Part shown: positions 24,838 through 43,954 of the stretch, in pieces
Numbering within the stretch: position 1 is the stretch's first letter
Layout: each line of letters opens with the position of its first letter
Assembly (NCBI GenBank): GCA_017634475.1
Contig: JAGBNH010000057.1
Location: forward strand, 1 to 56,087
Source: Eubacterium sp.
Lineage (GTDB): Bacteria > Bacillota > Clostridia > Lachnospirales > Lachnospiraceae
Direction of reading: 5' to 3'
DNA length: 56,087 nt
Made by a program: the position numbers and the translations under genes
Notes under the pieces: model-generated
Databases searched by the model: none
What the model was told of the DNA's origin: nothing
What the model saw: only the letters and a program-made list of their open reading frames with translations

Positions 24838-25656
24838 TTATGTTACTTTGAATCTGTTATCATCCTCCGAGGCTTCTTCTGCCGGTTCCTCATCCTCCGG
24901 CGTTTCATCTACCGGTGCCTCATCCTCCGGTGTTTCTACCACCCGTGTCGCAACCACCGGTGCTTCTATGCGCATCTTCAGAGGCGTCACTTCTTCATGT
25001 ACCGGAGTCTCATCATTCGTCTCTCCCCAGTACCAGGCGTCGTATCCGGGCTCGCCCTCTTTGGGACGCTTCATAAACCTTCGCATCACATATTCCATGG
25101 GATAGGTAAGAAGATACATGAACAGTCCCGGGAAGACCACGATGGCCCAGGGCAACAGGTAGATCCCGATCACCATCACCACGAATACCACAAGAATGAG
25201 CACCGTTATGGGAAGAAAGCGAAATGCACCATAGGCTGCCATTTTAAAAAGAGCAAAGTTCTTTTTTGTAAATCTGGACAGGAAGGGTCCGAAATAGGTG
25301 GCGCAGGCCAGAAACAGAAATGTCACTCCGGACAGGATGATGAACAGACTGTCATTCAGCTTGCTCCGGTTATTCCAGACATAATAGATATCCAGGACCA
25401 GTACAACGATCACCAGCTGGGTAATTATGCTGGGGATCAGAGACTGCTTGAAATTCGTCTTGAAACTCCGCCAGAATTCCTTGAATAGATATCCCGTTTT
25501 AAACCGAACAACCTTCGACATGGTGTAATACGCGGCTGTGGTGCCGGCTCCCACGGTGATCAGCGGAAGGCAACACAGAAACCACAGGATCCCGATCATC
25601 AGGATGTCGAAAAGGGTGCTCATGGTCTTATACAGATTTCCGTCCGGTGAGAACAT
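24838..25656 (-). CDS. DUF624 (YesL-like) membrane protein
   Basis: A 272-residue integral membrane protein with about five membrane segments. The N-terminus LFDILMIGILWFLCCLPLIT followed by VGAGTTAAYYTMSKV is the DUF624/YesL signature, a family often found beside sugar ABC transporters; function unknown. The C-terminal about 50 residues are an acidic, repetitive tail (VVETPEDEAPVDETPEDEE) likely exposed and disordered. AAGGAG precedes ATG. It lies between the solute-binding protein and GH130 genes. A second DUF624 gene occurs at 41575-42357. Confidence 0.85.
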   Translation of the reverse strand: MFSPDGNLYKTMSTLFDILMIGILWFLCCLPLITVGAGTTAAYYTMSKVVRFKTGYLFKEFWRSFKTNFKQSLIPSIITQLVIVVLVLDIYYVWNNRSKLNDSLFIILSGVTFLFLACATYFGPFLSRFTKKNFALFKMAAYGAFRFLPITVLILVVFVVMVIGIYLLPWAIVVFPGLFMYLLTYPMEYVMRRFMKRPKEGEPGYDAWYWGETNDETPVHEEVTPLKMRIEAPVVATRVVETPEDEAPVDETPEDEEPAEEASEDDNRFKVT

Positions 25657-27393: not shown

Positions 27394-29307
27394 TTATTTT
27401 ACATTACCGATGGAAGCGCTGTTTACGGTCCAGTTGCTCGTAGCCTCGAACTGGATACGTCCGCCCCACTTGGAGACATCATCACCGCACTGCTCAGCGA
27501 TCATCTCATAGGAGATCTGGCAGTGAGATCCGTCGAACAGTGCATAACCCTGTCCGGAACCATCGAAGTCGCCAACGCCTACACGCTTCCAACCAGCTTC
27601 GGCATCCGGCATAACGATCCAGATCTCACCGGTCTCGGAAGTGTAATTAATATCGATCACGGAACCTGCAACAAGTGCTGCCTTCATTTCGTCGGTAAGC
27701 TCGATACCATCCTGAGCCCATCCGGCACCCTTGATGCCGTTAGCGCCAAGATCAACATGGCTGTTGCAAGCCTTGAACTCAGCTGCAGTACCAACGCGTA
27801 CGCCGTATACTTCCCACGGTCCGTCAGATTCACACTGGAATCCGGAGCCCCATGTAGATACATCATCGGAGCAGTACTGAGCGATCAGCTCAAACGGGAT
27901 ATATGCCTTGCTTCCGTCAGCAACGATGTAGCCCTGACCGGAACCGTCATAATCGCCAACACCTACACGCATCCAACCTGCTGCAGACTCATTCATAACG
28001 AGCCAGATGTGACCTGTGTCAGACTTGTAGGATACTTCTACTACAGAACCGGGTACCAGAGCAGCCTTAACTTCATCTGTAAATGCAGCACCTGCCTGTG
28101 CCCATCCATCGCCCTTAACAGCGAAGCCTTCAAAGTTAACTGCATGTGTCAGAGCGTAGCTCGGAGCTGCCATACCAACCTTAACGGAAGATACAGACCA
28201 GTCACCATCGGATTCACACTGGATCATGGAGCCCCATGTAGATACGTCCTCACCGCAAACTGCTGCGATCTGCTCGTATGTGATCTGGCAGGTATTTCCT
28301 GCGTTGTTGATCCGTGCATACTGCTGACCGGAACCATCCCAGTCACCAACACCTACGCGCATCCAGCCTGCTGCGGACTCGTTCATAACAACCCACAGAT
28401 GTCCTGTGGAGGACTGGAAGGTGATCTCAAGTACGGAACCCGGTACCAGAGCAGCCTTAACTTCATCTGTAAATGCAACACCTGCCTGTGCCCAGGCGCC
28501 TGCAGATACGGAATAACCTGCCCAGTCAACTGCCTTGGTGATACCAAGAAGATTTGCTCTGTCGCTGGAGGTAGAGAAGCCTGAGGGATCACCAAACTCT
28601 GCAGAAGAGTCAGCCTTGATGGTAGCGCCGTTCTTATCTACAAATGTGATGTTGTCCAGCCACATATGAGACGGTGTAGTCTTGGAGTTATCTGTCTCCT
28701 TGGAAAGAACTACGTAGTTATCCTTTCCTGCTACAAAACCGACATTGCTTACATCAAACTTAGCAACCTTCGGATTTGCGTTCTCCACATATACTGACCA
28801 GTTACCGGCCTTAACCTCTTTGTTGTCCTCGCCGGTGTAGCAGTACAGTGTACCACTGGAAGCTGCGAACTTGTCCGGATTCTCGGTACCCATCTCGATG
28901 CGGATCTCAGCGAGATCAGCGATCTTGTCACCCAGAAGTGCGGATACATTGATACCGACGAACATATTGCCGCCCTCAACATTTGTAACCTTAAGTGCCT
29001 TGGAGCCATTGAAGGTTCCTACGGAAAGCTCGGACTTATCAGCTCCGCCTCCGGTCTTAACCTTTACGAAACCGAACTTGTCATCCTCGAAATCGATACT
29101 CGGATCAAGCTTCGCCTCCTGCTTTTCCGTAACAGGCTCGGTGCTTGCCTCTGTGGTGGCTGCTTCACTTGTAGCTGCGGAAGTATTTGCCTGAGTCGTA
29201 GCTGCCGGAGCAGATGTCGTACTCGTATCGGAATTGCCGCATGCTGCGAAGGAAGTAACCATCATAGCTGATGCCAGTGCGATGGTTGCCAGTTTTCTTT
29301 TCTTCAC
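27394..29307 (-). CDS. Surface lipoprotein with a jelly-roll module and three tandem carbohydrate-binding-like repeats
   Basis: A 637-residue non-enzymatic lipoprotein. The start is GTG at 29307, with GAGGAGG 9 nt upstream; an ATG 78 bp earlier lacks a ribosome binding site and spoils the signal peptide. Lipidated Cys23 follows VTSFAAC. After a Thr/Ala linker comes a beta-sandwich module (about 69-232), then three repeats of about 125 residues (258-383, 388-512, 516-637), each with GWAQAG-like, FTDEVKAALVPGS, WMRVGVGD-DGSGQ and DDVSTWGS motifs. A 36-bp stretch is identical between repeats 1 and 2. No glycosidase residues are seen. A role in holding mannan at the cell surface for the adjacent importer is inferred. 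Confidence 0.8.
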   Translation of the reverse strand: MKKRKLATIALASAMMVTSFAACGNSDTSTTSAPAATTQANTSAATSEAATTEASTEPVTEKQEAKLDPSIDFEDDKFGFVKVKTGGGADKSELSVGTFNGSKALKVTNVEGGNMFVGINVSALLGDKIADLAEIRIEMGTENPDKFAASSGTLYCYTGEDNKEVKAGNWSVYVENANPKVAKFDVSNVGFVAGKDNYVVLSKETDNSKTTPSHMWLDNITFVDKNGATIKADSSAEFGDPSGFSTSSDRANLLGITKAVDWAGYSVSAGAWAQAGVAFTDEVKAALVPGSVLEITFQSSTGHLWVVMNESAAGWMRVGVGDWDGSGQQYARINNAGNTCQITYEQIAAVCGEDVSTWGSMIQCESDGDWSVSSVKVGMAAPSYALTHAVNFEGFAVKGDGWAQAGAAFTDEVKAALVPGSVVEVSYKSDTGHIWLVMNESAAGWMRVGVGDYDGSGQGYIVADGSKAYIPFELIAQYCSDDVSTWGSGFQCESDGPWEVYGVRVGTAAEFKACNSHVDLGANGIKGAGWAQDGIELTDEMKAALVAGSVIDINYTSETGEIWIVMPDAEAGWKRVGVGDFDGSGQGYALFDGSHCQISYEMIAEQCGDDVSKWGGRIQFEATSNWTVNSASIGNVK

Positions 29308-29356
29308 TTTTCTTTTCCTCCTCTTTTTGGAAATAGATTCGTCAGTTAGTGACTTA

Positions 29357-29385
29357 ATTTTATAATAAAACTTGCTAAAATGCAA
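29357..29385 (-). promoter_or_regulatory. Internal promoter for the CBM-like lipoprotein operon
   Basis: On the minus strand TTGCAT (29380-29385) and TAAAAT (29357-29362) are 17 bp apart, 50 bp before the GTG start, within a very AT-rich 213-bp intergenic region (29308-29520). It would allow the lipoprotein, solute-binding protein and intracellular enzymes to be transcribed apart from the GH26 operon. Confidence 0.6.
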
Positions 29386-29520: not shown

Positions 29521-30546
29521 TTAGCCGACGATACCGGAGCGTTCCACACCCTCGATGAACTGCTTCTGCAGAAGAACATAAATGATCACCAGCGGGAGCA
29601 TCACAAGGATGATACCTGCATCCATGTAGAGCTGCAGGATGTTGGGGTCATAGATCCGGTATACATTTCCGACGGTACTTCCCAGAGTGGCGATCCGCTT
29701 GGAAAGCAGCACCGAATCGCTGATGTTGAAGAGCTTCGCATAGAAGGTATCGTTGTACTGCCAAACCAGCGAGAAGATCGCTACCGTGATGGCCGCAGGG
29801 GTAGCATTCCGGAGCATGATCCGGAAGTAGGTATGCCATACGCCGCAGCCGTCCACATAAGCCGCCTCCTCGATCTCCTTCGGCAGGCCCCGGAAGAACT
29901 GGTTGAAAATGTAGATATACAGTCCCGACCTGAGGCCGCAGGCGAAGAAGGTCATGATGTACATGGGCCACACCGTACCCAGCAGGTTCGGGCTGTTGCC
30001 CATGATGAGACCAAGGATACCGAAGATATCGAAGTTCGCAAAGGTCATGTACAGCGGAAGCATGATGGTATGGGTCGGGATAACGATCATTACCACCACG
30101 AAGGCGAACAGCACCTTCTTCAGCGGGAAATCGTACCGCGCGAAACCATAACCTACCATGGAGCACATCAGCACCTGGATGATCATCAACGTAACAGAGT
30201 AGATGATGGTACTGATGGAGGTTGACGTATAGTTCAACGTCTTCCATGCGATCTCATACCGCTCCATCGTGGGATTCTGCGGGATCATATACACCATGGT
30301 GTTGTAATTATCCGCATCCGAGAAGAAGGATCTCGCCAGGATACCCAGCACCGGTCCCAGGATGACATAGGCGATACCGATCAGAACGACCCAACGGAAG
30401 AGGCCCAGGAGGAATCCCTTGAAGCCCTCGGTGATCTTGCTTTTTGTATTTACGTCCATCTTCTTCAGATGGAACCCTTTTGGATCAACCGGCACAAGCT
30501 CGCTGTTTTCCGGTTTTTTCTTTGTTGCTTCTGCAACCTTATCCAT
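29521..30546 (-). CDS. Carbohydrate ABC transporter permease (MalG-like)
   Basis: A 341-residue inner membrane permease with six membrane segments. The EAA loop that contacts the ATPase is FFRGLPKEIEEAAYVDGCG followed by VWHTYFRIMLRNA, near the C-terminus. The hydrophilic N-terminus of about 55 residues is longer than usual. The start at 30546 is chosen over a GTG at 30558 because GGAGG lies 11 nt upstream of it but overlaps the GTG region. It is 21 bp downstream of its partner permease. No ATPase gene is present, so a shared MsmK-like ATPase is expected. Confidence 0.92.
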   Translation of the reverse strand: MDKVAEATKKKPENSELVPVDPKGFHLKKMDVNTKSKITEGFKGFLLGLFRWVVLIGIAYVILGPVLGILARSFFSDADNYNTMVYMIPQNPTMERYEIAWKTLNYTSTSISTIIYSVTLMIIQVLMCSMVGYGFARYDFPLKKVLFAFVVVMIVIPTHTIMLPLYMTFANFDIFGILGLIMGNSPNLLGTVWPMYIMTFFACGLRSGLYIYIFNQFFRGLPKEIEEAAYVDGCGVWHTYFRIMLRNATPAAITVAIFSLVWQYNDTFYAKLFNISDSVLLSKRIATLGSTVGNVYRIYDPNILQLYMDAGIILVMLPLVIIYVLLQKQFIEGVERSGIVG

Positions 30547-30567
30547 ACTGTCGACCACCTCCTTCCG

Positions 30568-31491
30568 TTAGTTATAGTAGAACGTTCGTTTTTGTATAAA
30601 TCGCACCACGATGGCCAGGATCAGACACGTGATCACCGTAGATACAATGGACATGGTAGAACTCAGTCCATAGTTTTTCTCCGAGAACGCCGTGTTGTAG
30701 GCCAGGGTAACAACCTCCGAATTGACGAAGCTGTCCACCACCGTGTAGACCACAACCGTGATGATATGCGGCATTACCATGGGGAAGGTTACCTTCCAGA
30801 AGGTTTCATAGGCTGTGGCTCCCTCGATCTTCGCAACCTCATACATGGAGCTTGGTATGGATTGCAGTGCCGCGATGAAAATGATGATCTGTACGCCGGA
30901 AGCATTAATGATATCACTGATCCTTCCTACCGCACCAACCACGTATTCTACGAGTCCCATGGGAAGTCCCAGGTTCGAGAACATCTGAACATAATACTCT
31001 ATGCTGACACCTGCGCTTACCGATTCCGCAACCTCGGCACCGGCCGAAGAGAGACCGCCCATCATCATGCTGGCGGAAACCTTCATGGCTGCAAGGATCG
31101 CTTCGGAGTTCAGGATGACCGGCAGGAAGAAGATGGCACGCATCAGTGTTCTTCCCTTGAACTTCTTGTTCAGCAGCATAGCCACCATCAGAGAGAAGAA
31201 GGTGATCAGCGGAACGTCGATCAGCATATCTCCCACTGAGGAGGTAAGTATCTGCTTAAAGGAGCCGTGTGCCCGAAATGCATAGAGGAAATTATCAAAT
31301 CCCACATAGTCCAGTGTATAACCGCCGCCGGGCGCAACCGTCAGATCCGAAAGAGAGAACTGAACGGTCATGATCAGGCTCCGCAGATAGAACCACAGGA
31401 ACCCGATGAGCCAGGGAACGATAAAGAGGAAGCCCTTCATCGAGCGCTTGCGGGAAAGAGTAAGCTTAGATTTTTTCTTTTTTTCGCCCAT
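30568..31491 (-). CDS. Carbohydrate ABC transporter permease (MalF/UgpA-like)
   Basis: A 307-residue permease. After a Lys-rich N-terminus (MGEKKKKSKLTLSRKRS), six membrane segments follow, beginning FLFIVPWLIGFLWFYLRSLI. The EAA loop is PSSMYEVAKIEGATAYETFW followed by KVTFPMVMPHI. ATG at 31491 is preferred to a TTG at 31503, since GGAGG lies 5 nt before the ATG and within the last codons of the DUF5696 gene, showing tight translational coupling. It pairs with the MalG-like permease downstream. Confidence 0.93.
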   Translation of the reverse strand: MGEKKKKSKLTLSRKRSMKGFLFIVPWLIGFLWFYLRSLIMTVQFSLSDLTVAPGGGYTLDYVGFDNFLYAFRAHGSFKQILTSSVGDMLIDVPLITFFSLMVAMLLNKKFKGRTLMRAIFFLPVILNSEAILAAMKVSASMMMGGLSSAGAEVAESVSAGVSIEYYVQMFSNLGLPMGLVEYVVGAVGRISDIINASGVQIIIFIAALQSIPSSMYEVAKIEGATAYETFWKVTFPMVMPHIITVVVYTVVDSFVNSEVVTLAYNTAFSEKNYGLSSTMSIVSTVITCLILAIVVRFIQKRTFYYN

Positions 31492-31492
31492 C

Positions 31493-34132
31493 TTATCCTC
31501 CAATCACATAGCTCTTCGGCTGTACCTGAACGCCGTCAACCTCCACACTGTTTTCTGTGTGGTTTACATAAATCTTTACCCCGTTACTGTAGGTGGTAAC
31601 GGATACACCTCTCTGGATATTCTTAAAATCCGTGATATGTGCGCCGCTCACCTTGGACAATGCCGCATTGGTCTTGCTCCAGATCTCAACCGCGTTTTCC
31701 TTCCAGCTGTCGAAGTTGGTGGAATACATCTTGTTGAGACCGGTCATCTTCATTTCCGTTGCTGCATTCTTCGTAAAGGTGAAGTGTGGTGATGCGCCGC
31801 TTTCAATGAGGGAAAGCACGATCTCGTTGGAATCTGTGGTATTCCCCAGATTGATCACCGTTCCGGAATAATCGATGCATCCATGGATCAGCATCTCGTA
31901 GAACGGGATCGACTCATCGATCACATAGTAGTCATTATCGGAAAGCGGTGCATTCAGAATGTCATCCGCATAAGCGAAGCTGTAATCATTTCCGTCATTG
32001 ACCATAAGTTTCTTTCCGGTATCTTCCAGCTTCTGGAACTGGGAGGATACCACCTGAAGGGCATGCTCACGGTTGATCACGTTGGTCCGTCGCTTATCCG
32101 ACTGCAGGACACTGCCAAGATCCCGAAGGGAAATGCCGGCAACGTCATAATCCTGGATATCCTCGGCAAAATTCTCGGTATAACGAACCAGGAATTTCGG
32201 TGAAACCAGATAGTAGATATTCTCGTCATAGCCCAGACTTGCGGTCTGACGCAGGCTGACAGGATTGACCTCTCCGAACTCGCCGATATACCCTGTACCA
32301 TAGTATCTGGAGGTCTCATTGGATGCCGAGTAACGGCTTGCCACATCGGATACCTTCTGGAATGCGCAGTCCACATAGAGTGTACCGGACATGGAGGAAA
32401 GCTTCTTGGAGAGACTTTCCAAATCCGAGGATCCGCCCAGCTTGCCGGGCACCTTGATCTTGTTCAGTGCATCATGGTAATATCCGCCGCCGGACCAGCC
32501 CTGCAGGTTCATCACCTGATTGGTCACGCCCTTGTCTGCCAGCTCCTCAGCCATCTTTCCCGCCTCCTCGAAGGTGGTCATGGCTGCGATGCCGCGGTAC
32601 TGGGTTCCCAGGAAATACTTGGTCTCTTCCACGCCGGCAATGACATCATAGTAGAGCTTGATGTCACCGGTCTCGGAATTGGCAGGTTCCAGTCTGCCCT
32701 CGCTGATGAGACGGTTTCTGTAGTAGTTTGCCGCACCAGCATAGCCGTTATTCTCTTCCGTCAGGAAGGTGTAACGCATGGTCAGCGGGCAGTCATAGTA
32801 ATTCTTCTCTACGATGGGAAGCTCAGCCTCACTACCCGTTGTACCGAACATGGCAAGCGTATCATTACCACGTACGATGAATTTGGTGTAAACGTTATTA
32901 TACTCATTTACGTCACCGGCTACTCCTGCGGAAATGTTGGCCAGAGAAGCGCCGGATTCGATGGTGGCCAGGATACCGGATTTCTCACGGAAGATCCCGA
33001 AGAGAGCCATCTTGGTATTCTCGGTGATCTCACGGACCGTATAGTCCGCAACCATGGGGTCGATGCCGTAGACATACTCGGAGTAATCATCACCGGAACG
33101 GATGGATGCCTTACCGTTGTTAAAGTAGATCAGGGAACCGGAGCCGTTGGGAACCAGCATGTAACCGGTCTCGTCCTTACCTGCGGCACCCATGAAGTTC
33201 AGCATCTGGATGTCATGAATGGCACCGCCGCCGTTCTCCACTACCGACTTCATGGGAATGGTAGCTTCCAGATAATCATCCTTGATGACGTAATCAATGG
33301 GTACGGTGAAGGTAATGGGTACTGCATCCTCAACGTCTGCATTTTCCATTTCCCTTGCATAGTCATCCTTGGTCCAGCCTGCTTCCTCGAAATACTGGTT
33401 CAGGCGGCGAAGCTCTGCCACGCCCTTCCGGGTATTGTCAAGCATCTGCAGGATATCCTCACCCATTTCACTCTGGATGAATTTCTTTCTTGCGTACTTT
33501 GCATCCGCATCCTTCATCCTGGAAAGCACATCCTCCAGTACATCCTTCCGGATATAAATGGGGACGATACCTGTTGCCGCGGTAGTATCGCCGAAGGTGT
33601 AGATCACCCGGACGCCGTTGTCGATGGACTTTACTTCCATCTGGTCAAAACCTACCGCCTGGCTGAAGGAATCAAAGGTATTCTCCATACGCTGAGTGTT
33701 AAAGTAGTCAACAATCAGCTGACTCTTCAGATAGTTCTTGTTAACATTGTTGGCCATTCCGTCCTGATCCGCTCCCGGAGGATTGGAATAGATGGTCTCG
33801 CCGTTTCGCTTATCATAGATCGCGATATTTCCGTTCGACGGCATGATGTACAGCTTCAGCTTTTCATTCTCCGCTGCAAGCGTATATCCCTCCACCGATG
33901 GGGAAGCATCCGCGATGGCCTTGAAGTCTCTGTCTTCTGCAACAGAATAGTCTGAAATGTAGTCCCGGTAGTGATTGTAGAAGTTATAGCGGATCAGATG
34001 GATGGTGAAGTAGATTCCTGTCGCCAGAACGGCTGCCAGGATCAGGTAGATCACCCATTTGCTTACCTTTTTCCTTTTCTTCTTCAGATTCAGTTCCTTG
34101 AGGGCTTTTTTCTGTTCTTTTGTCTTTGCCAT
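31493..34132 (-). CDS. DUF5696-type membrane-anchored extracellular protein
   Basis: An 879-residue protein with a basic, Lys-rich cytoplasmic start, one membrane segment (about 26-46) and a very large extracellular part. The sequence (ESGASLANISAGVAGDVNEY, FGTQYR-like FLGTQYRGIAAMTTFEEAG, MNLQGWSGGGYYHDALNK, NDGNDYSFAYADDILNAPL) resembles DUF5696 proteins found in transporter clusters of Lachnospiraceae and Paenibacillus; their function is not established. Regions around GWSGGGYYHD and YVDCAF look like a TIM-barrel-type fold, which might bind or cut glycans, but I cannot name catalytic residues with confidence. AAGGAGG precedes ATG. It lies between the YIP1 and permease genes, overlapping neither. 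Confidence 0.75.
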   Translation of the reverse strand: MAKTKEQKKALKELNLKKKRKKVSKWVIYLILAAVLATGIYFTIHLIRYNFYNHYRDYISDYSVAEDRDFKAIADASPSVEGYTLAAENEKLKLYIMPSNGNIAIYDKRNGETIYSNPPGADQDGMANNVNKNYLKSQLIVDYFNTQRMENTFDSFSQAVGFDQMEVKSIDNGVRVIYTFGDTTAATGIVPIYIRKDVLEDVLSRMKDADAKYARKKFIQSEMGEDILQMLDNTRKGVAELRRLNQYFEEAGWTKDDYAREMENADVEDAVPITFTVPIDYVIKDDYLEATIPMKSVVENGGGAIHDIQMLNFMGAAGKDETGYMLVPNGSGSLIYFNNGKASIRSGDDYSEYVYGIDPMVADYTVREITENTKMALFGIFREKSGILATIESGASLANISAGVAGDVNEYNNVYTKFIVRGNDTLAMFGTTGSEAELPIVEKNYYDCPLTMRYTFLTEENNGYAGAANYYRNRLISEGRLEPANSETGDIKLYYDVIAGVEETKYFLGTQYRGIAAMTTFEEAGKMAEELADKGVTNQVMNLQGWSGGGYYHDALNKIKVPGKLGGSSDLESLSKKLSSMSGTLYVDCAFQKVSDVASRYSASNETSRYYGTGYIGEFGEVNPVSLRQTASLGYDENIYYLVSPKFLVRYTENFAEDIQDYDVAGISLRDLGSVLQSDKRRTNVINREHALQVVSSQFQKLEDTGKKLMVNDGNDYSFAYADDILNAPLSDNDYYVIDESIPFYEMLIHGCIDYSGTVINLGNTTDSNEIVLSLIESGASPHFTFTKNAATEMKMTGLNKMYSTNFDSWKENAVEIWSKTNAALSKVSGAHITDFKNIQRGVSVTTYSNGVKIYVNHTENSVEVDGVQVQPKSYVIGG

Positions 34133-34144
34133 GGTCGCCCTCCT

Positions 34145-34780
34145 TTACGCCCGGAACATCAGTTCCTGGTAGATACTGAACAGGAAACTGTATACCTGAT
34201 TGATAAGATCTACGAGAAGGAGAATGATGAACACAATGATCAGCAGTGCCACAAGGGTAAGGAATATGGTAATGATGGTCTTACCCAGGGTGAAATTATG
34301 CACCGTCATGATCCCGATCAGCATCATAAACAGTGTGTAGGCGATGCCGATGCCGCAGATCATGGTATAAAAAGCAGCTTCGTCATTGGAAACAAACTGA
34401 CTGACCAGTGTTCCGATCAGGATACATACCGTTGCCGGAACGGTGGAATAACCGATGGCAATGATGATATCCTTAAGTCTCCCCTTACCATCCATCAGAC
34501 AGGTGATGGACCAGTTGCTGACACAGATCAGGAAGAAGAACAGCAGTACAGTGATCAGCTCGCTGATGGAGTTAACCATTCTCGGATCTACGTCATTTAC
34601 AACAAAGCTTGCGGAAATCCGGTTGATGGACCAGACTACCGAGAAAAGCACCACAAGGATCAGGGCAACCAGTACGCTCCCCCTTTCCCGGTGACGAATC
34701 TCATAGAAACCATCAGCAGGATGACTGACTGTATGGAGCATGAATTTCCATTTATCTTTCGATAAAAGCATTTTTATCAC
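34145..34780 (-). CDS. YIP1-family membrane protein
   Basis: A 211-residue protein with a hydrophilic start (SHPADGFYEIRHRERGS, the typical YIP1 opening) and about five membrane segments (VLVALILVVLFSVVW, LITVLLFFFLICVSNWSITC, STVPATVCILIGTLV, LFMMLIGIMTVHNF, TIFLTLVALLIIVFIILLL). The start is GTG at 34780, giving a GTGA overlap with the NHL gene stop and a GGAGG 5-7 nt upstream; an ATG three codons later is too far from it. The bacterial YIP1 role is unknown. Strict coupling to the NHL and DUF5696 genes suggests a shared membrane complex. Confidence 0.82.
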   Translation of the reverse strand: MIKMLLSKDKWKFMLHTVSHPADGFYEIRHRERGSVLVALILVVLFSVVWSINRISASFVVNDVDPRMVNSISELITVLLFFFLICVSNWSITCLMDGKGRLKDIIIAIGYSTVPATVCILIGTLVSQFVSNDEAAFYTMICGIGIAYTLFMMLIGIMTVHNFTLGKTIITIFLTLVALLIIVFIILLLVDLINQVYSFLFSIYQELMFRA

Positions 34781-36258
34781 AGCAGCCCCTCCTCTCTGAC
34801 TTTTCCTTTCTTCTTGTCACGGAACCTCTTCCAGATGACAAGCACGACGATCAGCACGATCACTCCGGTCAGGATCCAGCCCAGATTCTCTTCCAGGATC
34901 TGGTTCCGATATCGCTTGAAGGCGATGGAATAATACTTCTTGTTCATGCCAAGCTCGAAATAATGCATGGCCTTCTTATTATCTCCGGCAGTAAGGTAAG
35001 CCTTGCCTATACCGTTATTGGCCAGCTCATTATTCTCATCCAGTCGAAGAACCGCTTCCCACTTCTCAATGGCCTGGGTCTCATCACCATCAAAACGGAG
35101 CCCCACAGCATCATTGATCAGCTGACCGTAATTGGTTTCCTTAAAGGTCAGGATCGCATTCCGGCCCGCATCCAGCACCAGGATCTCATCATCGATGGCT
35201 TCGATAGCTGCAGGAGTCTGGAAGGTTCCCTTCTGGAGACCGATACCACCGAAGATATACAGAAGATTTCCTTCCTTATCGTAGGTGAAGATACGTCCGC
35301 GCTTACGATCCAGCAGGGAATACTTTCCCTTGTCCCGGTAAACCACGTCCACGATCTCGGAAGGACCGCCGTAGTCACCGTACTTGGCGGTCTTGATGTC
35401 ACCGCCCACATTTCCGTTTTCCCCCTTCTGGATCACGTCCTTACCCTGGGGATTTAGCCGACGCACCGCCTGCACGCCGTCGGAATCGATATTGGATGCG
35501 TAGATGAATCCGCCGCTGTCCACGTCGATCCCCGTGAACTCCGTGGGGATGTACAGCTGGGTATTGGAACGTTCCTCCTTGGAGGCGAACCGCCGCCAGA
35601 ACTTCTCCCATACGGAGATCTTAACTTCGATGGTTCCGAAGTAACCGGAGAAGTCTCCATTGGCCTCGAAGACCAGGATACCCTCGAAGGCCCCCTTACT
35701 GATGACATAGATACGATCCGCATAATCCACGGTAACCTTCAACGGGATAAATGTGAAGTTGTCCTCCAGGATCTCGGAATCCGGTTCATTGATCAGCTTT
35801 ATAAACTCGCCCTCGGGGGTAAGCTCAACCACCCGGGCGTTGTTGGAATCTGCTACATACAGATGATTATTCTCGGATACGCACACACCGTAGGGGGCGT
35901 TGAAATGATCCTCCTCCCCGTCCCGGGTAAAGGAATCGATGACCCGGTTCACCTTCGTCATCTTATTGTCCATTACCACGACCCGGTTGTTTCCGGTATC
36001 TGCCACATAGATCTCGCCCGCATCGGAAACACAGATATCTCTGGGTTCCCTGAAGGCATCCGTTCCCACATCCAGGCCGGTAATGGTCCTGTCCGGCGTA
36101 TAGGCTGCGGGGGTTTTTACGATATCCTTCCAGTAATTGTAATTATAGGTATCGTAGGGAACATCCTCCTCTGCCCGGACTGCTGTACCGGAAAAGACCA
36201 CCGCTACGGACAGGGCAAGCGCACCGAGTATGTTTTTGATCTTGTTTTTCTTTTTCAT
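34777..36258 (-). CDS. Exported NHL-repeat beta-propeller with TPR and C-terminal membrane anchor
   Basis: A 493-residue protein. A signal peptide (IKNILGALALSVAVVFSGTA) is followed by an NHL-type six-bladed propeller (about 60-370) with blades such as FREPRDICVSDAGEIYVADT and NAPYGVCVSENNHLYVADSN. A TPR-like segment (about 395-450, ANNGIGKAYLTAGDNKKAMH) and a single membrane segment (about 460-478, GWILTGVIVLIVVLVIW) follow, ending in a basic cytoplasmic tail. The propeller faces outside and could bind protein or glycan. It lies between the permease pair and YIP1, overlapping the latter by 4 bp. No enzymatic residues are evident. Confidence 0.82.
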   Translation of the reverse strand: MKKKNKIKNILGALALSVAVVFSGTAVRAEEDVPYDTYNYNYWKDIVKTPAAYTPDRTITGLDVGTDAFREPRDICVSDAGEIYVADTGNNRVVVMDNKMTKVNRVIDSFTRDGEEDHFNAPYGVCVSENNHLYVADSNNARVVELTPEGEFIKLINEPDSEILEDNFTFIPLKVTVDYADRIYVISKGAFEGILVFEANGDFSGYFGTIEVKISVWEKFWRRFASKEERSNTQLYIPTEFTGIDVDSGGFIYASNIDSDGVQAVRRLNPQGKDVIQKGENGNVGGDIKTAKYGDYGGPSEIVDVVYRDKGKYSLLDRKRGRIFTYDKEGNLLYIFGGIGLQKGTFQTPAAIEAIDDEILVLDAGRNAILTFKETNYGQLINDAVGLRFDGDETQAIEKWEAVLRLDENNELANNGIGKAYLTAGDNKKAMHYFELGMNKKYYSIAFKRYRNQILEENLGWILTGVIVLIVVLVIWKRFRDKKKGKVREEGLL

Positions 36259-36289
36259 ACGCGTGTCTACTCCTATTAGCTCTCCGGTC

Positions 36290-37255
36290 CTACTCTTTCA
36301 TACCGGAGGTGGTCATGGTTTCCAATACGTTGCTCTGGCAGGCCAGGAAGAAAATGATGGGCACTGCCGCGATGATAAAGGTAACGGCTGCGGAAGCACC
36401 CGCTCTTGCGGTACCGCCGGCAGCGATCTGCTGCAGTGCGAACTGCAGAGGCTTCAACTGCTCGTCACGAAGGAACATGGAACCCGTATTGCCCCACATC
36501 TGCTGGAACTGGAAGATTGCCAGGGTCAGCCATGCAGGCTTTACATTCGGCATCACGATGGACCAGAAGATCCGGTACTCGGATGCACCGTCAAGTCGTG
36601 CGGACTCCATCAGGGAGGTGGGCAGCTGTTCCATGAACTGCTTCATCAGGTAGAGACCCATACCATACTGCCATGCCGGCAGGATCAGTGCCAGATAGGT
36701 GTTGTTGATATGCAGCCAGCTGATGATCATGTAGTTCGGGATCTGCGTAACGGTCCAGGAGAACATCATGGAAAGGACAACCATGTTGAACAGGATCTTC
36801 TTTCCCGGGAACTCGTGCTTTGCCAGAGGATAAGCGGCAAGGGATGCCACGATAACATGGCCAAAGGTTCCGAGTCCTGTAATGATGATCGTATTCAGGA
36901 TATATCTCGAAAAGGGCACCCAGGAATCACTCATGACATTGAACAGGTCCGTGAAGTTCTCCAGGGTAGGATTCTTTACGAAGATCGCCGGAGGATACTG
37001 GAAGATCTCATCCAGTGGCTTGAGCGCATTGTTTACGATCATGACCAGAGGCAGGGACATAAAAATACCGCAGATGATCATGATACCGAAGAGGATACCG
37101 TTTCCGGCTACGGAACGGTTCAGCTTCTTCTCCTTGTAGGTTTTCTTCATCAGCTCCTTTACCTTGGCATCCGGATCGGCATCCGGTACCGGAGGCGGGA
37201 TAACGACAGCTCCATGGGTAAGCGGTTGAATCACAATGTCTTTATTTCTTGCCAC
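36290..37255 (-). CDS. Carbohydrate ABC transporter permease (MalG-like), GTG start
   Basis: A 321-residue permease with six membrane segments and the EAA loop EQLPTSLMESARLDGASEYR followed by IFWSIVMPNVKPA. The start is GTG at 37255 with AGGTGA 6 nt upstream, two bases beyond the stop of the partner permease, so the two are translationally coupled. The N-terminus is a 55-residue hydrophilic arm. It belongs to the importer set led by the 985-residue binding protein. Confidence 0.92.
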   Translation of the reverse strand: MARNKDIVIQPLTHGAVVIPPPVPDADPDAKVKELMKKTYKEKKLNRSVAGNGILFGIMIICGIFMSLPLVMIVNNALKPLDEIFQYPPAIFVKNPTLENFTDLFNVMSDSWVPFSRYILNTIIITGLGTFGHVIVASLAAYPLAKHEFPGKKILFNMVVLSMMFSWTVTQIPNYMIISWLHINNTYLALILPAWQYGMGLYLMKQFMEQLPTSLMESARLDGASEYRIFWSIVMPNVKPAWLTLAIFQFQQMWGNTGSMFLRDEQLKPLQFALQQIAAGGTARAGASAAVTFIIAAVPIIFFLACQSNVLETMTTSGMKE

Positions 37256-37257
37256 GA

Positions 37258-38526
37258 TTATTCACCTACCCTTCTCAGCAGTCTCTGTACCAGCTTATTC
37301 GTACCGACCATCAGAAGGAACAGGACGGTCGCTATGGCTGATGCATAGCCCATATCAAATCTTGTGGAACCGTAGTCAAGAAGGTGTGTGACTACCGTTG
37401 CACCGGCGTAGTTAACGGACGGGTTACCTGCCAGCTGTATGGAGATATCCGCCACCGCAAAGGACTGGGTGATCTGCATGACCGCACCGAACATCAGCTG
37501 CGGCTTCATGGCAGGAAGAGTTACATACCAAAGCTCCTGCCAACGGTTCTTGACGCCGTCCAGAGCCGCCGCTTCATAAAGCGACTTGTCCACGGTCTGA
37601 AGACCGGCGATAAAAGAAAGGAAGCCGGTACCCAGGGACAGCCACAGCTGAACCACGATCAGACAGGGAAGGATCAGGTCTGCATCCTGCATCCATAGTT
37701 TTTGTTCATTGATAAATCCAAGCTTCATCAGCAAACCGTTCAGATAACCGTAACGGTCGGAAGAAAGGATCAGCTGCCATACCATAAACGCGTTACCGCA
37801 AATGGAGGGCGCATAGAAGATCAGTGTAAGGAAGGTACGTACCTTCGGACGGAACTCATTGATGATCCAGGCGAACAGGAGACACAGGATATAACTGATG
37901 GGTCCCGTAACAACCGCAAAGATCAGGGTGTTCTTCAGGGAGATCATGAAGATATCATCATTCAGGAACAGCTTTGTGTAATTCGACCAGCCGTTAAACT
38001 TCGGCATCTCCAGCATATTGAAGTAGGTGAAGCTGAGTGCGATGGACATCAGCACCGGCAGCACCGTAAAGCAGAAGAACAGGATGAAATAAGGCGCCAT
38101 CATGATATAGCTTGCTTTATTTCTCTTAATGCGGTAACGGAGTGTCCGCTGCCTCTTCGCAATGGCGTCGTTGGCCACTGCGGAAAGCGCCGCTTCTCTT
38201 GTGGTCCTGGACGGATCTGTGGCACGATAGGCCATGGTCGCTGCTACTTCCCTGGCTTCAGCTTCAAGCTTCTTTTCATCCTCTGCGATCTTCTTTCCGA
38301 CTACTACAGACAGAAGATCATCCACATCTTCCTCAGCTTCGGATGAAAGCTCTTCTGTATCCGGTCCGTAAGAAGCAGGTTCTTCTTCATCGTCTCCGAT
38401 CTCCGGCAGCTTGATCTCCTCGTCTTCGATCACGATATCGTCTATATCATAGTCGCCGGTCAGGGTTTCCGTTTCTGCATTTTTTGCATTTGCCAACGCA
38501 TCACGGATATCTTTCGGATTTGACAC
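37258..38526 (-). CDS. Carbohydrate ABC transporter permease (MalF-like) with long acidic N-terminal arm
   Basis: A 422-residue permease, about 110-120 residues longer than usual. Residues 1-140 form a cytoplasmic arm: a strongly acidic part (DIDDIVIEDEEIKLPEIGDD) and then a helical, basic part ending RTLRYRIKRNKASY. Six membrane segments follow from IMMAPYFILFFCFTVLPVLM, and the EAA loop is VDKSLYEAAALDGVKNRWQE followed by LWYVTLPAM. The start is GTG at 38526 with GGAGG 9 nt upstream. The arm could dock a partner protein or the ATPase; that is inference. It follows the binding-protein gene by 20 bp. Confidence 0.9.
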   Translation of the reverse strand: MSNPKDIRDALANAKNAETETLTGDYDIDDIVIEDEEIKLPEIGDDEEEPASYGPDTEELSSEAEEDVDDLLSVVVGKKIAEDEKKLEAEAREVAATMAYRATDPSRTTREAALSAVANDAIAKRQRTLRYRIKRNKASYIMMAPYFILFFCFTVLPVLMSIALSFTYFNMLEMPKFNGWSNYTKLFLNDDIFMISLKNTLIFAVVTGPISYILCLLFAWIINEFRPKVRTFLTLIFYAPSICGNAFMVWQLILSSDRYGYLNGLLMKLGFINEQKLWMQDADLILPCLIVVQLWLSLGTGFLSFIAGLQTVDKSLYEAAALDGVKNRWQELWYVTLPAMKPQLMFGAVMQITQSFAVADISIQLAGNPSVNYAGATVVTHLLDYGSTRFDMGYASAIATVLFLLMVGTNKLVQRLLRRVGE

Positions 38527-38546
38527 GTCTTCTTTCCTCCTTTCCC

Positions 38547-41504
38547 CTATTCTTCTTCAACCGGTAAATTGAATTCGATTCGCTTATACCGGATCTCTTC
38601 GTTGATATACAGCACTTTATCCATCAGCTCCTCACGGGGGGAAGCCGTATCGGTCTCGGTGGTAACCGTATAAAATGCGTTATTTACATTTCGCCAGGAG
38701 TAGTATCCGCCGGGAACCTGCGGGATACCCTTGACCCAGGTAAATGCTCCGGACAGATTGTGGTAGGTATCTACCGGCCAGGGAAGCATCTCAAAGGCTT
38801 CCTTATTGGCTGTTGCCACACGGGCTGCGGAACCCATAAGAGACTCCATCTCCCGGTCATACAATGCCTGAACGTCGGCGGAAGTCCACCACTTCAGGAA
38901 CTTCCAGCAGGCATCCGGATGCTTGGTATCCGCCATAATCATGGAGGCAAGTCCGGTGCAGCCTACGGAGTGATCTACGGTTCCGTCTTCCTTCCTCGTT
39001 CCGGGAACCATGGTGAAGTCCCAGAGACCTGCGATATCCGGAGCGGAAACCTCCAGGTTGTTATAAACCGTATAGTCTGCAATGATGATGGGGCACTCAC
39101 CTGTACGGAAACGTTCTTCCACGGAGGTGGTCTTGTCGAGACCGTAGTCGGTGTAGAATTCACAATACTGCTTAAAGGTATTGACTGCGATATCCGAATC
39201 CAGCGCGGAGGAGATACCGCCTTCGTTGTAATACTTTCCTCCGTTCTGGTAGAGCAGCATTGCGTAGATCTGCTCACTGGGGAGCATACCGAATTCCATC
39301 TGGTTCTTCGCAAGAACGGACATGATGACCTTAACGTCATCCCAGGTCTCCGGAATCTCCAGACCCAGCTGGTTCAGGATGTCCTTCCGGTAGAACATTA
39401 CCGGGAAGGTCTGGGTCTCGGGAAGTGCATACAGCTTTCCGTCAAAGGAAAATGCGGTAAGTGCGCTTTCATAGAAACGATCCTTTACTTCCGCCACATC
39501 ACTGAACTGGTTCAGATTCAGCACCGCATTACGAAGTCCGTAGTTCACCGGAGTATCGTTACCGGTATTCAGTACCGCACCGGCGATACCGTTGGTATTT
39601 GCCACCTGGATGGCCACATCCGGGCCCTCGCCGGCCAGCTCGGCACGAAGCAGGGTATTCATATCCACCAGCTGCACATTTACATTGACTCCGTAAACGC
39701 TGGTGAAGGATTCGTCGATCAGCGAACGGATAACGTTTGCCTGATCACGGCCGGTACCGACCCAGAGAGTAATGGTCTCGTTATTTGCGCCCTCTCCGCC
39801 GGTGGAACCCAGGGAGTTGTAGTCGATCACGAAGGAATTGTACAGGCGGGCAATCTCATTTCCAAAGTCACTGAAGAAGTTATTTCCGCTCACCTCGATA
39901 CTCTTTGAATCAGAGGTTACGAAGATACGGTCGATCTGCAGGGGCTGGCTGATGACCTGGGTGATCCAGGTACCGCAGGCACGTACATTTACCTTATAGG
40001 TACTGATGACACGTACAAAATGCTCCACGTCCTCGATCAGGTAGTCCAGCTGGTCGCGCATGGTGATCAGCACTGTCTCCTTGTCGGAGGTACGTCCCAC
40101 TGCCGTACGCAGGGAGTAAATGGCGTCGTTCAGCTCATCCCGGACTTCCGTCATCTCTGCAACGATGTTGGGCAGCGAAGCCTCGATCTGATAGTCACGG
40201 TAGGTATCCGGTGAAACGCCGATGATACGGATGACCTTACGATAGATCTCATTCAGCTTGCTCACGGAATCCTGTACCTCGGCGATGACCTCGGAGAATT
40301 CACCCAGAACCACTTCCATACGAAGGGTGTGGGTTCCCTTGGTCAGGTAGAACTTATAGGGGTTCTTATCCTTATCGGAAAGGGTTTCCAGACGCCAGTC
40401 GGATTCATAGTAGAAACCGTAGTTCTCCATCTCGGCGAAGGGAACATCACCGTCAATGGTGATCCGGCGTGACACGTAAATGCCTCGCATGAAATTCTGA
40501 AGATCGAAAAGGGAGATTTCGTAATAACCATCTTCGGGGATATCGAGGTTCCACTCGATCCACTGTCCGGCCTTGTCCCAGCTGGTTCCGCCGATGGTGT
40601 TGTTCAGAAGATATCTCGCGCTGTGATCGCTGACTGCTGCAGAGGACTGATCCTGCTTCGGATACAGTGTCTGGGAGGAGGTCTTTCTTGCATCCTCACC
40701 CTCGAGCACGAGAGAAACGCCGCTGGTATCCTTTGCTCCGGCCTTGTCCCATTCGGACTTCTGGTCAGCATAGGAAAGCTCGGCTTTCTGATTAGAGAAG
40801 GTCAGTCCGCCAAGGAGCATGGGCTCACGACGGGACTGGATCATAATGGTATGCTCTCCTTCCGTAAGATAGAAGGAAAGAGGACTGGTGATATAACCGT
40901 TGTTATCATAGAGATAGGAGGAGATCCATTCGGGGATCTCGATGGAGGTGGGCTTCATGTCATTGCCCTGATTATCCTTCTTCCATTCCACATGGTTACC
41001 GCCTGCCTTAAAGGTCTCTTCTGCGATATCCGTGGTCCAGATCCGGGAGAACTGAACGATGTTCAGCTCTTTATAGGGCTGGTCTCCGTCCAGGAAGAAT
41101 GCACGCTGGATCTCCGAGTTCTTGCCCTCTACCGGATAGTAATCCAGAGAAAGCGAATAGAGACCGGCCTTCTTTACGGTGAACTTATAGGAAACCTCAC
41201 CCAGCTCGGTGGTAAGAATGCTGTCCCCGTCATAGCCCTCAAAATTACTGCGGACCTCAGGCATCACATCCTTGCCTTCCTCCTGGTAGGCATCGTAGTC
41301 CTTTGCCGCGATCCTGATCACCTCGTCCGGGCGATTCTGATCCGGCACCTCCGAAAGGTAACGGCCGTAATCCGTACTGTACTTAATGTCTGCCGCACCC
41401 GGTACTACCGTGTCCTTGGCGAAGACGTTGCGCAGCACAAAAAACAGTACGATCGCCAGCAGTACCGCGCCCCATATGATCCGATTTCGAACCTTTTGTG
41501 ACAT
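38547..41504 (-). CDS. Membrane-anchored solute-binding protein fused to carbohydrate-binding-like modules
   Basis: A 985-residue extracellular protein anchored by an N-terminal membrane segment (about 8-27) instead of a lipobox. Two beta-sandwich, CBM35/CBM6-like regions follow (about 70-250, with KAGLYSLSLDYYPVEGKNSE and LTEGEHTIMIQSRREP; and about 270-430, with GQWIEWNLDIPEDGYYEISL and LTKGTHTLRMEV), then a helical linker. The last about 390 residues are a family 1 solute-binding domain (GPDVAIQVANTNGIAG, FSFDGKLYALPETQTFPVMF). Ordinary binding proteins are 400-500 residues. The start at 41504 follows AGGAAGAG; a longer reading upstream lacks a site. It leads a permease pair and the NHL/YIP1/DUF5696 set. 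Confidence 0.88.
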   Translation of the reverse strand: MSQKVRNRIIWGAVLLAIVLFFVLRNVFAKDTVVPGAADIKYSTDYGRYLSEVPDQNRPDEVIRIAAKDYDAYQEEGKDVMPEVRSNFEGYDGDSILTTELGEVSYKFTVKKAGLYSLSLDYYPVEGKNSEIQRAFFLDGDQPYKELNIVQFSRIWTTDIAEETFKAGGNHVEWKKDNQGNDMKPTSIEIPEWISSYLYDNNGYITSPLSFYLTEGEHTIMIQSRREPMLLGGLTFSNQKAELSYADQKSEWDKAGAKDTSGVSLVLEGEDARKTSSQTLYPKQDQSSAAVSDHSARYLLNNTIGGTSWDKAGQWIEWNLDIPEDGYYEISLFDLQNFMRGIYVSRRITIDGDVPFAEMENYGFYYESDWRLETLSDKDKNPYKFYLTKGTHTLRMEVVLGEFSEVIAEVQDSVSKLNEIYRKVIRIIGVSPDTYRDYQIEASLPNIVAEMTEVRDELNDAIYSLRTAVGRTSDKETVLITMRDQLDYLIEDVEHFVRVISTYKVNVRACGTWITQVISQPLQIDRIFVTSDSKSIEVSGNNFFSDFGNEIARLYNSFVIDYNSLGSTGGEGANNETITLWVGTGRDQANVIRSLIDESFTSVYGVNVNVQLVDMNTLLRAELAGEGPDVAIQVANTNGIAGAVLNTGNDTPVNYGLRNAVLNLNQFSDVAEVKDRFYESALTAFSFDGKLYALPETQTFPVMFYRKDILNQLGLEIPETWDDVKVIMSVLAKNQMEFGMLPSEQIYAMLLYQNGGKYYNEGGISSALDSDIAVNTFKQYCEFYTDYGLDKTTSVEERFRTGECPIIIADYTVYNNLEVSAPDIAGLWDFTMVPGTRKEDGTVDHSVGCTGLASMIMADTKHPDACWKFLKWWTSADVQALYDREMESLMGSAARVATANKEAFEMLPWPVDTYHNLSGAFTWVKGIPQVPGGYYSWRNVNNAFYTVTTETDTASPREELMDKVLYINEEIRYKRIEFNLPVEEE

Positions 41505-41574: not shown

Positions 41575-42357
41575 TCATTCATACATCCAGAGATCCTCTG
41601 CAGGACCGTCCCTATAAGGAGCCTCCGGCATATAGCTCTTCAGCACCTTCTCCATCAGCAGGCTGGACAGGAACATCCAGAAGGACGGCAGGGCCAGCAG
41701 GGCAAGAATGGGAATGATGTAGATGACCAGGTAAACCAGTCCGCCCATGGCTGCCAGATGGATCAGTGTCACGATGAAATGTTGTCCGCTGATGATAAAG
41801 GCCATGTTGAAGGCCTGCCCCAGAGACACCCGAAACCGCGACATGATGGGAAACAGATACGTTGTGATGGACAGGGTAATGATCACCATGACCACCAGAG
41901 CCTTGGCGGAAAAGGATTTCAGCGAAACCTCGATATGCGCCACCTTCCAGTTGAAGATAACAAGGCCGGCAGTCCAAAGAAGAAGGATGAGCGTCGCTGC
42001 CGTCCCCTTCTTCAGATGCTGCCGAAAGGCTTTAAAATATTCCCGCACCGGATACCCCCGCTCGTGCCGTACGCTCTTCACGATGGCGTGGTACAGTGCG
42101 ATGGTTGATGTTCCTATGGTAAGAACCGGAAGACTGGTAAGAAGCCACACCAGACCCAGCAGGATCAGCTCGCCTGTCTTGGTAAGAAAGGTCACCACCG
42201 GTCCGTCCACATCCAGAAGGATATGCCGGAGAGAAAAGCCTTCCCGCTTCTCCAGGTTATCCCGCTCGGCCTCGCGCTTTACCTCCCGATTATGCTCTTC
42301 GCGGTAAAGCGTTCCGGGCTCATGCCCTTCCCGTTTTTCAATGTTCTGTTTTGTCAT
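41575..42357 (-). CDS. DUF624 (YesL-like) membrane protein
   Basis: A 260-residue membrane protein with the DUF624 pattern, including LILLGLVWLLTSLPVLTIGT followed by STIALYHAIVKSVRHERG, and about five membrane segments. A charged N-terminus of about 60 residues (EKREGHEPGTLYREEHNREV) is longer than in YesL. Its ribosome binding site (GGGGAAG) lies in the last codons of GH26, one base separating the two genes. It precedes the 985-residue binding protein, mirroring the other DUF624 gene next to the second binding protein. Function unknown. Confidence 0.85.
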   Translation of the reverse strand: MTKQNIEKREGHEPGTLYREEHNREVKREAERDNLEKREGFSLRHILLDVDGPVVTFLTKTGELILLGLVWLLTSLPVLTIGTSTIALYHAIVKSVRHERGYPVREYFKAFRQHLKKGTAATLILLLWTAGLVIFNWKVAHIEVSLKSFSAKALVVMVIITLSITTYLFPIMSRFRVSLGQAFNMAFIISGQHFIVTLIHLAAMGGLVYLVIYIIPILALLALPSFWMFLSSLLMEKVLKSYMPEAPYRDGPAEDLWMYE

Positions 42358-42358
42358 G

Positions 42359-43954
42359 CTACTTCCCCATGGGATAAGTCTTCAGATCCGGGAGTTCATC
42401 CCTTGTGATCACATGCTCATGGTTATACACCTTTTTCAGCATTTCCTTATCCGTATACTTCTCTGAAAATACATTCAGCGTGTCCGATTCGGTTACGAAT
42501 TCCCCACCCCAGGTTCCGAAATAGCTCCACATCGCGCCGTCCCGGATGGCCAGATCCGGATCGAAATGGCAGCCGTTCTCCGAAAGGGCAACGATCAGCC
42601 GGGTATCCGTAGCCTCTGTAACCTCGATATATCGCGGATACTGTGAGGTGTATATATGCTCACCGGGGTAAATGTCGGTTCCCATGATATCCACCACATC
42701 ATCTCCGGGATACCAGTCAGAGGACTGCCCGTTCCAAACCCAAATCAGGTTGTGCAGCTCATACTCCGTGGTAAACTTCTCATACATCAGGCGGTACAGC
42801 TTCTTGTAGGACTCTGCAGAGCAGTTGCCCCACCAGAACCACCCGCCGCTGGCCTCATGAAGCGGCCGCCAGAGCACCGGGATATCCTGATCCCGAAGCT
42901 TCGTCAGTTCCTTTGCGATAGCATCCATATCCGACATCAGAAGATCATATCCTTTAGTGTCCTTCTTCGCCGGATCATCACTCATGATCTTGTCCAGATC
43001 GATGTTCGTATGTTCCTTATAGAACCCGCTGTACCAGTTGCCCGTAAGGTAATCCTTCGGTGCGTTCCAATGCCAGCACATGGTGATAAGGCTGTTATTC
43101 TCCCAGGCTTCGATGGCGAAATCGATGCTCTTTCCGGAGCTTCCGTTAGCCACACGGGAGGGAGAATACTCGATCATGTCCAGTCCCACCATGGCAGGGA
43201 ACTTGCCTGTTGCCTTCCAGATCACCGCCATTTCGTGACCGAACATTCCCTTGTCGCAGTACTGACCGGAAATGATATTCTTTCCGTAATTATCCAGAAG
43301 ATACTGATACACCCGCTTCGCATTGTCCGATGCCTTCGGATCCGAAAGCGTCTTCCTGGCATCATAAAGAGAAGTATCGAAGGGTGCACCGGTCATTACA
43401 TCAAGCCTGTCTATCAGTGCATATCCCCAGTACTTCTCCACCAACACCTCGTGCTGTCCCGCTGTAAGATAGACATGCGGGATCGTTGACGTTTCAAAGC
43501 TTTTCTGTTCTCCTGCGATCGTTCCGATGGACTCACCGTCCACCCGCACATAGTTTTCTTTATATCCGCCGCTCATGGCAACGATAAAATCCAGGTCATA
43601 GAATCCGTCAGCCGGAACGGAAAAGGGGATCTTCACTCCGTCCCCATCCTTGGCCAGTCCGTCCACATAGCCTGTACCGGAGTAGCCGGAAACCTCTTTG
43701 GCCGCTTTCGCTCCGCCCACCGTTGTTCCGTCTTCCGCCTCAATGGAGGTGACTAATTCTCTTGTAAAGGTTTTTTCTGTATTCGTCATCTCAGAACTCT
43801 GGCCGATCCCATCGCCGGTGATCTGCTCGGAATTATCATTTACTTTACCACAGCCCGGACACTGACTGGATAACATAAGGGAAGCAGCAAGAACAAGGCC
43901 ATATCTGACTTGTTTTTTTAAGTTGTTTTTTAGTCCGGCTTTTGCTCGCTTCAT
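42359..43954 (-). CDS. Endo-beta-1,4-mannanase, GH26, with N-terminal CBM35-like module
   Basis: A 531-residue exported mannanase. After a signal sequence (YGLVLAASLMLSS), Cys32 or Cys35 might be lipidated, though neither fits the lipobox well. A CBM35-like module spans about 65-190 (IEAEDGTTVGG, GYSGTGYVDGLAKDGDGVKI). The GH26 barrel (about 200-530) shows the acid/base Glu367 in WRPLHEASGGWFWWG and the nucleophile Glu459 in VALSENG, plus MCWHWNAP and IWVWNGQSSDWYPGDDVVDI, all family hallmarks. It would cut mannan at the cell surface. It leads the import operon, with a palindrome-overlapped promoter upstream. Confidence 0.95.
   Translation of the reverse strand: MKRAKAGLKNNLKKQVRYGLVLAASLMLSSQCPGCGKVNDNSEQITGDGIGQSSEMTNTEKTFTRELVTSIEAEDGTTVGGAKAAKEVSGYSGTGYVDGLAKDGDGVKIPFSVPADGFYDLDFIVAMSGGYKENYVRVDGESIGTIAGEQKSFETSTIPHVYLTAGQHEVLVEKYWGYALIDRLDVMTGAPFDTSLYDARKTLSDPKASDNAKRVYQYLLDNYGKNIISGQYCDKGMFGHEMAVIWKATGKFPAMVGLDMIEYSPSRVANGSSGKSIDFAIEAWENNSLITMCWHWNAPKDYLTGNWYSGFYKEHTNIDLDKIMSDDPAKKDTKGYDLLMSDMDAIAKELTKLRDQDIPVLWRPLHEASGGWFWWGNCSAESYKKLYRLMYEKFTTEYELHNLIWVWNGQSSDWYPGDDVVDIMGTDIYPGEHIYTSQYPRYIEVTEATDTRLIVALSENGCHFDPDLAIRDGAMWSYFGTWGGEFVTESDTLNVFSEKYTDKEMLKKVYNHEHVITRDELPDLKTYPMGK

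Follow-up and report, generated by a model that had tools for sequence, protein, structure and literature searches.

Sugar uptake in Gram-positive bacteria of gut and soil is usually described in terms of a binding protein, a pair of permeases and an ATPase, and the question raised here is what such an importer would do with two permease pairs, a propeller protein, a YIP1-family membrane protein and a DUF5696 protein encoded in one tight run. The eight genes concerned, hereafter the cassette, lie on the minus strand between positions 41504 and 29521 of contig JAGBNH010000057.1 of a Eubacterium sp. (assembly GCA_017634475.1); this whole contig of 56,087 nucleotides, part of a 2.18 Mb host genome that is 81% complete, is the window. 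In order they encode a solute-binding protein (SBP) fusion (SBPfus), the permeases MalF1 and MalG1, an NHL/TPR protein, a YIP1-family protein, a DUF5696 protein and the permeases MalF2 and MalG2. An initial interpretation made from the letters alone (the sequence-only reading) had proposed this set, and all eight genes were found with the order, domains and coordinates that it gave. We lean, with some reserve, towards the explanation that the cassette is a CUT1-type carbohydrate ATP-binding cassette (ABC) importer enlarged by conserved extra subunits for glycan capture and scaffolding.

The first three genes form module A, which is armed with carbohydrate-binding module (CBM)-like domains. SBPfus (985 aa, 38547..41504) consists of a membrane anchor, two CBM35/CBM6-like sandwiches, a helical stalk and a solute-binding domain (SBP_bac_1 at residues 592-880 of 985, E 3.5e-21), and a purine-rich stretch stands ahead of its start at 41504 and none ahead of 41582. 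MalF1 (37258..38526) and MalG1 (36290..37255) are BPD_transp_1 permeases with the EAA-loop motifs EAAALDG and ESARLDG. Module B begins with the NHL propeller and TPR protein (34777..36258), in which a signal-peptide-like N-terminus, a C-terminal membrane helix and a basic tail can be read, and continues with the YIP1-family membrane protein (34145..34780), which scores 59.3 bits against Yip1 (PF04893), above the Pfam gathering score of 28.6. It is completed by the DUF5696 protein (31493..34132; DUF5696 619 bits), with an N-terminal membrane helix and a GH129-related body whose full catalytic signature is incomplete, and by the BPD_transp_1 permeases MalF2 (30568..31491, EVAKIEG) and MalG2 (29521..30558, EAAYVDG).

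From SBPfus to MalG2 the intergenic gaps are 20, 2, 31, -4, 12, 1 and 9 bp, the negative value being a 4-base GTGA overlap of the NHL and YIP1 genes; MalF2 is counted from its likely start, ATG 31491, which is preceded by GGAG, and the alternative TTG 31503 would make the DUF5696-MalF2 gap -11. Purine-rich stretches precede all eight start codons, some of them within the upstream gene. The tight coupling noticed in the sequence-only reading is general, with median gaps of -4 to 13 bp at the seven junctions (49-93 loci each), the first start codon of each frame being taken as the start, a choice biased towards overlaps. Promoter-like and terminator-like sites showed no excess over shuffled sequence. 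The 140-residue acidic N-terminal arm of MalF1 described from the same letters is real in the window, and as a general cassette part it was ruled out by a length survey: MalF1 is 422-432 aa long in the window and in six close relatives, against a median of 318 aa over all loci, making the arm lineage-specific.

The cassette is not a local curiosity and is widespread in distantly related bacteria. We gathered 97 DUF5696 loci (the window, 16 named GTDB contigs, 60 class and 20 phylum loci) and left out one with an interrupted DUF5696 gene (L059), so that 96 were counted. In the omitted locus the gene is split by two opposite-strand frames, as if a mobile element had inserted. All eight genes are present in 67 of the 96. 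When 11 incomplete loci were re-listed, eight proved to open with a cut gene or at the edge of a contig; in the other three (L121, L124, L125) different genes occupy module A's place. As these loci had been selected by DUF5696, a reverse search was made with NHL and SBP markers, defined in the class sample by an NHL profile at E<=1e-25 and an SBP N-terminal profile at E<=1e-15; 84 long-form DUF5696 matches were hand-selected, and the short form and weak matches were excluded. Among 291 class genomes long-form DUF5696 occurs in 65, cassette NHL in 61, the SBP N-terminus in 63 and all three in 61, and none of the 291 has either marker without DUF5696. A DUF5696 gene lies within 3 kb on the same strand for 77 of 80 NHL matches in this sample; the three exceptions are an interrupted DUF5696 gene (G077) and two genomes with the parts on separate contigs (G200, G052). 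The hypergeometric p for marker co-occurrence, 1.5e-58, disregards relatedness and is not to be taken literally. In the phylum sample DUF5696 was found at E<=1e-20 in 37 of 398 genomes; of these Bacillota, the 33 not already counted all have both the NHL and the SBP marker. They were selected by DUF5696, and only the class sample tests for module A without module B. The association of the three extra genes with the SBP fusion, which the sequence-only reading had put forward as its own check, thus holds nearly without exception, and the separation in most genomes that would have told against it was looked for and not found. Three scans of viral contigs, each with a single protein, yielded no relative.

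How closely the two modules belong together is where the strongest alternative arises, namely that two independent importers share one operon, with NHL, YIP1 and DUF5696 serving module B only and module A merely co-regulated. We consider this quite possible, if short of probable. It is opposed by the finding that DUF5696 is co-resident in 63 of 63 class genomes with the module A marker, and by the phylum sample (33 genomes), in which 56 of 65 module A markers have a module B marker no more than 8 kb away. Pairwise distances point the same way, as A and B genes correlate with each other (0.75-0.88) as well as genes within B do (0.73-0.85), in complete loci and without species-tree control. Seen from the other side, the pairing is looser, and here the evidence weighs against a single obligatory assembly of both modules: a module A marker is near only 56 of 96 NHL markers, and 40 of the 96 have none within 8 kb on the same contig and strand. 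Most of these lone markers (35 of 40) fall in five genomes in which module B is amplified, and some others reflect contig breaks; the lone loci L121, L124 and L125 were inspected gene by gene. Module A to module B marker counts in the five are 6:11, 4:10, 9:17, 4:10 and 4:8, including a few partial genes and one frame with an internal stop in G407, a genome of 310 contigs and 5% estimated contamination. The five genomes (G407 with L124, G366 with L125, G388 with L121, G460 and G489), of 2.2-3.0 Mb, have 8-17 NHL matches each, about twice their SBP-fusion matches.

Module order also varies, as A precedes B in 48 close pairs and follows it in eight. The loci L127, L131 and L134 read NHL-YIP1, DUF5696, MalF2, MalG2, SBPfus, MalF1, MalG1 (MalG2 itself was not recognised in L131). 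Moreover, a plain SBP follows MalG2 within four same-strand frames in 40 of the 82 loci where such frames are available. All of this would suit two separate importers, as would the lone and amplified B loci. Because module B can be alone or amplified and module A is nearly always near B, module B is the core and module A the partner. Since module B can occur without a nearby A, there is no need to assume a single machine of eight parts, and the obligatory stoichiometric complex proposed earlier is not supported in that form; an association of NHL with YIP1 does find support, and we return to it below.

What the DUF5696 protein might contribute to an importer is suggested by a kinship that the sequence-only reading overlooked. 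A profile of 45 cassette DUF5696 proteins matched two members of glycoside hydrolase (GH) family 129, the 3,6-anhydro-D-galactosidase ZgGH129 (5opq, 8rzk; E 6e-16) and the alpha-N-acetylgalactosaminidase NagBb (5wzn; E 5e-8). Foldseek with an AlphaFold2 model of the window protein agreed, placing GH129 structures on top (4.8e-15). The model, made from the window and 13 close relatives, is poor (pLDDT 53), which tempers the fold match; it was set aside for active-site geometry and used for the fold search alone. The Pfam GH129 model was not among the matches of the 45 proteins at E 0.01. By homology and predicted fold, DUF5696 is a relative of the GH129 glycosidases.

The same Pfam family (PF18952) holds a stand-alone group of 15 proteins, 561-668 aa long, that lack any neighbouring match to NHL, YIP1 or the SBP fusion, and a profile of these with three GH129 proteins matched NagBb at 1e-53 and ZgGH129 at 6e-27. 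Residues 435 (YLDV) and 478 (SSE) of NagBb, which we take to be its catalytic pair, align in the HMMER rows with the stand-alone motifs YIDV and SSE, and the Asp of ZgGH129 that differs between chains (D486N in the PDB title) aligns within the first catalytic segment. Every one of the 15 stand-alone forms carries Asp and Glu in the two segments, and each keeps two or more of the three conserved His. In the 94 cassette forms, Asp is found in the first segment in 46, Glu in the second in 16 and both in six (42, 16 and six of 86 once sequences at least 90% identical are removed); 91 retain none of the three His and none retains two. An alignment register error was considered and rejected as the source of this loss, as a tolerance of positions 669-673 and 711-714 gives 6/94, against 5/94 for the exact columns. 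Retention of both residues in 15 of 15 stand-alone but six of 94 cassette forms gives the latter the look of pseudo-enzymes, and the cassette DUF5696 is a probable membrane-anchored pseudo-glycosidase. The stand-alone proteins (L140-L153 and L157; about 570 aa, for example L140:1087-2790), which pass under a domain of unknown function, are probably unrecognised GH129-like glycosidases. The family would then lump probable GH129-like enzymes with probable pseudo-enzymes.

The cassette proteins are strongly conserved at other positions, which argues that they are under selection for something. In 86 sequences the conservation of Gly332 and Asn761 is 1.00, of Tyr355 0.98 and of Glu777 0.92; Asp739 and Arg688 are, like Glu777, widely retained, and the cassette forms have a conserved segment of their own (GYxxPDGSG, VYGxD). 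These residues could also be read as a rearranged active site, so that DUF5696 would be an active hydrolase or transglycosidase trimming glycans at the membrane before import. Besides the widely kept Asp739, Glu777 and Arg688 and the GH129 homology itself, this alternative can draw on the 23 cassette forms out of 94, among them that of the window, with Asp in the first segment and Asp or Glu in the second. The window protein reads LRDLG and VNDG at these places (Asp671 and Asp713), two Asp and no Glu. Such two-carboxylate forms may have residual or altered activity, and a pseudo-glycosidase is less surely what the window's own clade encodes. For the cassette forms as a whole we nevertheless judge an active enzyme unlikely, there being no carboxylate pair at the GH129 positions common to them and no His at the three conserved positions in nearly all.

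For the NHL and YIP1 proteins the evidence comes from gene fusion. Of the 67 complete loci, 25 have the two merged in one open reading frame, and in a Paenibacillus cellulosilyticus record one gene named YIP1 matches both profiles; these fusions argue for a physical association of NHL with YIP1. The topology is sensible, as the window NHL protein reads as ending in a membrane helix and basic tail where YIP1 begins. An apparent YIP1-DUF5696 fusion in L013 was discarded, its extra 222 residues being unlike YIP1, which has its own frame in the same DNA; in alignments A1 and A2 the row for this locus was left as it is, untrimmed, and in A3 it was trimmed. That NHL-YIP1 and DUF5696 instead make up a glycan sensor gating the permeases or signalling expression, and no transport scaffold, is very improbable: NHL and TPR are interaction folds and a histidine kinase and a response regulator are encoded just upstream of the Butyrivibrio fibrisolvens cassette, but such a pair is found in one of two annotated records, and what the window encodes instead is a LacI-like regulator (44836-45840, from sequence reading without a domain scan).

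Both permease pairs could couple to an ATPase, since an EAA-like motif (pattern E.[ASGC]..[DENSHK]G) is present in 66 of 75 MalF1, 72 of 72 MalG1, 82 of 93 MalF2 and 73 of 89 MalG2 proteins. In the host genome, as far as complete, one OB_MalK ATPase was found, outside the window contig, and a UgpC ATPase gene lies directly upstream of the P. cellulosilyticus cassette. All four permeases may well be driven by one shared MsmX/UgpC-type ATPase.

In the importer that we favour, module B, followed in about half of the loci by a plain SBP, would be the core. Membrane-anchored DUF5696 would bind a glycan end or branch, which most members would no longer cleave, and the NHL/TPR ectodomain with the YIP1 membrane part would be a scaffold beside the permeases. 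Module A would contribute the other permease pair together with a solute-binding domain mounted on paired CBM-like modules and a helical stalk, and SBPfus could thereby keep glycan freed by secreted hydrolases near the membrane. A bolder form, which we regard as doubtful, is an unnamed, phylum-wide Gram-positive machine in which an NHL/TPR-YIP1 scaffold bridges two MalFG-type channels while a dead GH129-fold protein and the CBM-armed SBP take hold of long or branched glycans and pass them into the channels; it would be the functional equivalent of SusCD, served by secreted enzymes that can be exchanged.

How does this compare with known systems? CUT1 importers (MalEFGK2, MsmEFGK) consist of a binding protein, MalF/MalG permeases and an ATPase. 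The cassette likewise has an SBP_bac_1 protein and MalF/MalG pairs with EAA loops, and its putative ATPase gene lies outside the operon. It differs in having two permease pairs, an anchored SBP with CBM-like modules and the conserved NHL, YIP1 and DUF5696 proteins. DUF5696, for its part, departs from the GH129 enzymes in its membrane anchor, its own conserved segment and the loss in most members of the catalytic residues and His. SusCD-type polysaccharide utilisation loci belong to Bacteroidota and resemble the cassette in logic only, a constant transporter core with variable glycan-active neighbours; the cassette uses ABC permeases, and SusC/SusD domains were found in none of the ten window proteins scanned. 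We found no paper on DUF5696 and no relevant one on NHL/YIP1/ABC permease combinations in the open-access literature, in line with the earlier suggestion of an undescribed set, and no name for the cassette, which is likely an enlarged carbohydrate ABC importer with a probably dead glycosidase subunit. If so, many glycan importers would be larger than thought, with DUF5696 in 65 of 291 class genomes and up to 17 NHL matches per genome, and DUF5696, a Pfam family without function, gains a functional hypothesis.

The substrate was taken to be mannan in the sequence-only reading, which also drew the limits of the system too narrowly. The window flanks encode a mannanase-type GH26-CBM35 protein (42359..43954, minus strand), GH5 (45881-47239), GH113 (47317-48294), GH130, GH36 and an epimerase-type protein, a neighbourhood that fits beta-mannan. 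Elsewhere mannan specificity was ruled out by the varied glycan enzymes at other loci, where 86 of 193 candidate neighbours were scanned and 25 of 110 matched families listed. Among those listed, with one or two proteins apiece, are GH10, GH29, GH43, alginate lyase, GH130, GH5, GH3, GH28, pectate lyase, GH9, GH18, a glucoamylase-like family and chondroitinase B. With neighbours that vary in this way the cassette is not bound to one glycan. Butyrivibrio fibrisolvens D1 plasmid pNP243, for example, has the same gene order with a GH43 gene upstream. Two observations speak against glycans as the general substrate: many neighbours elsewhere are not glycan enzymes (for example ribonucleotide reductase), and the P. 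cellulosilyticus plasmid cassette (L160) lies between the UgpC gene and several LLM-class flavin oxidoreductase genes, which suggests a substrate other than plain polysaccharide. The substrate may therefore not always be a glycan. In the window itself, the three possible mannan hydrolase types (GH113, GH5, GH26) are clustered, with GH130, GH36 and the epimerase-type gene on the same contig.

The remaining flanking genes lie on the minus strand as well. An exported 3xCBM65 protein (27394..29385), of a kind whose strong matches are restricted to the window and near relatives, follows MalG2, and beyond it lies SBP2, a plain solute-binding protein (25899..27356; Pfam SBP_bac_1 1.1e-14). MusI, a DUF624 protein, serves the maltose importer of Corynebacterium as an accessory membrane protein, and the window also has a small membrane protein encoded next to sugar permeases, the DUF624 (YesL-like) protein upstream of SBPfus (41575..42357). 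It scores 84.5 bits against NCBIfam MusI_fam, under the curated cut-off of 160, and YIP1 belongs to a different family. Together with a second DUF624 membrane protein (24838..25656) it brackets the cassette and SBP2, and the two may be further importer accessories.

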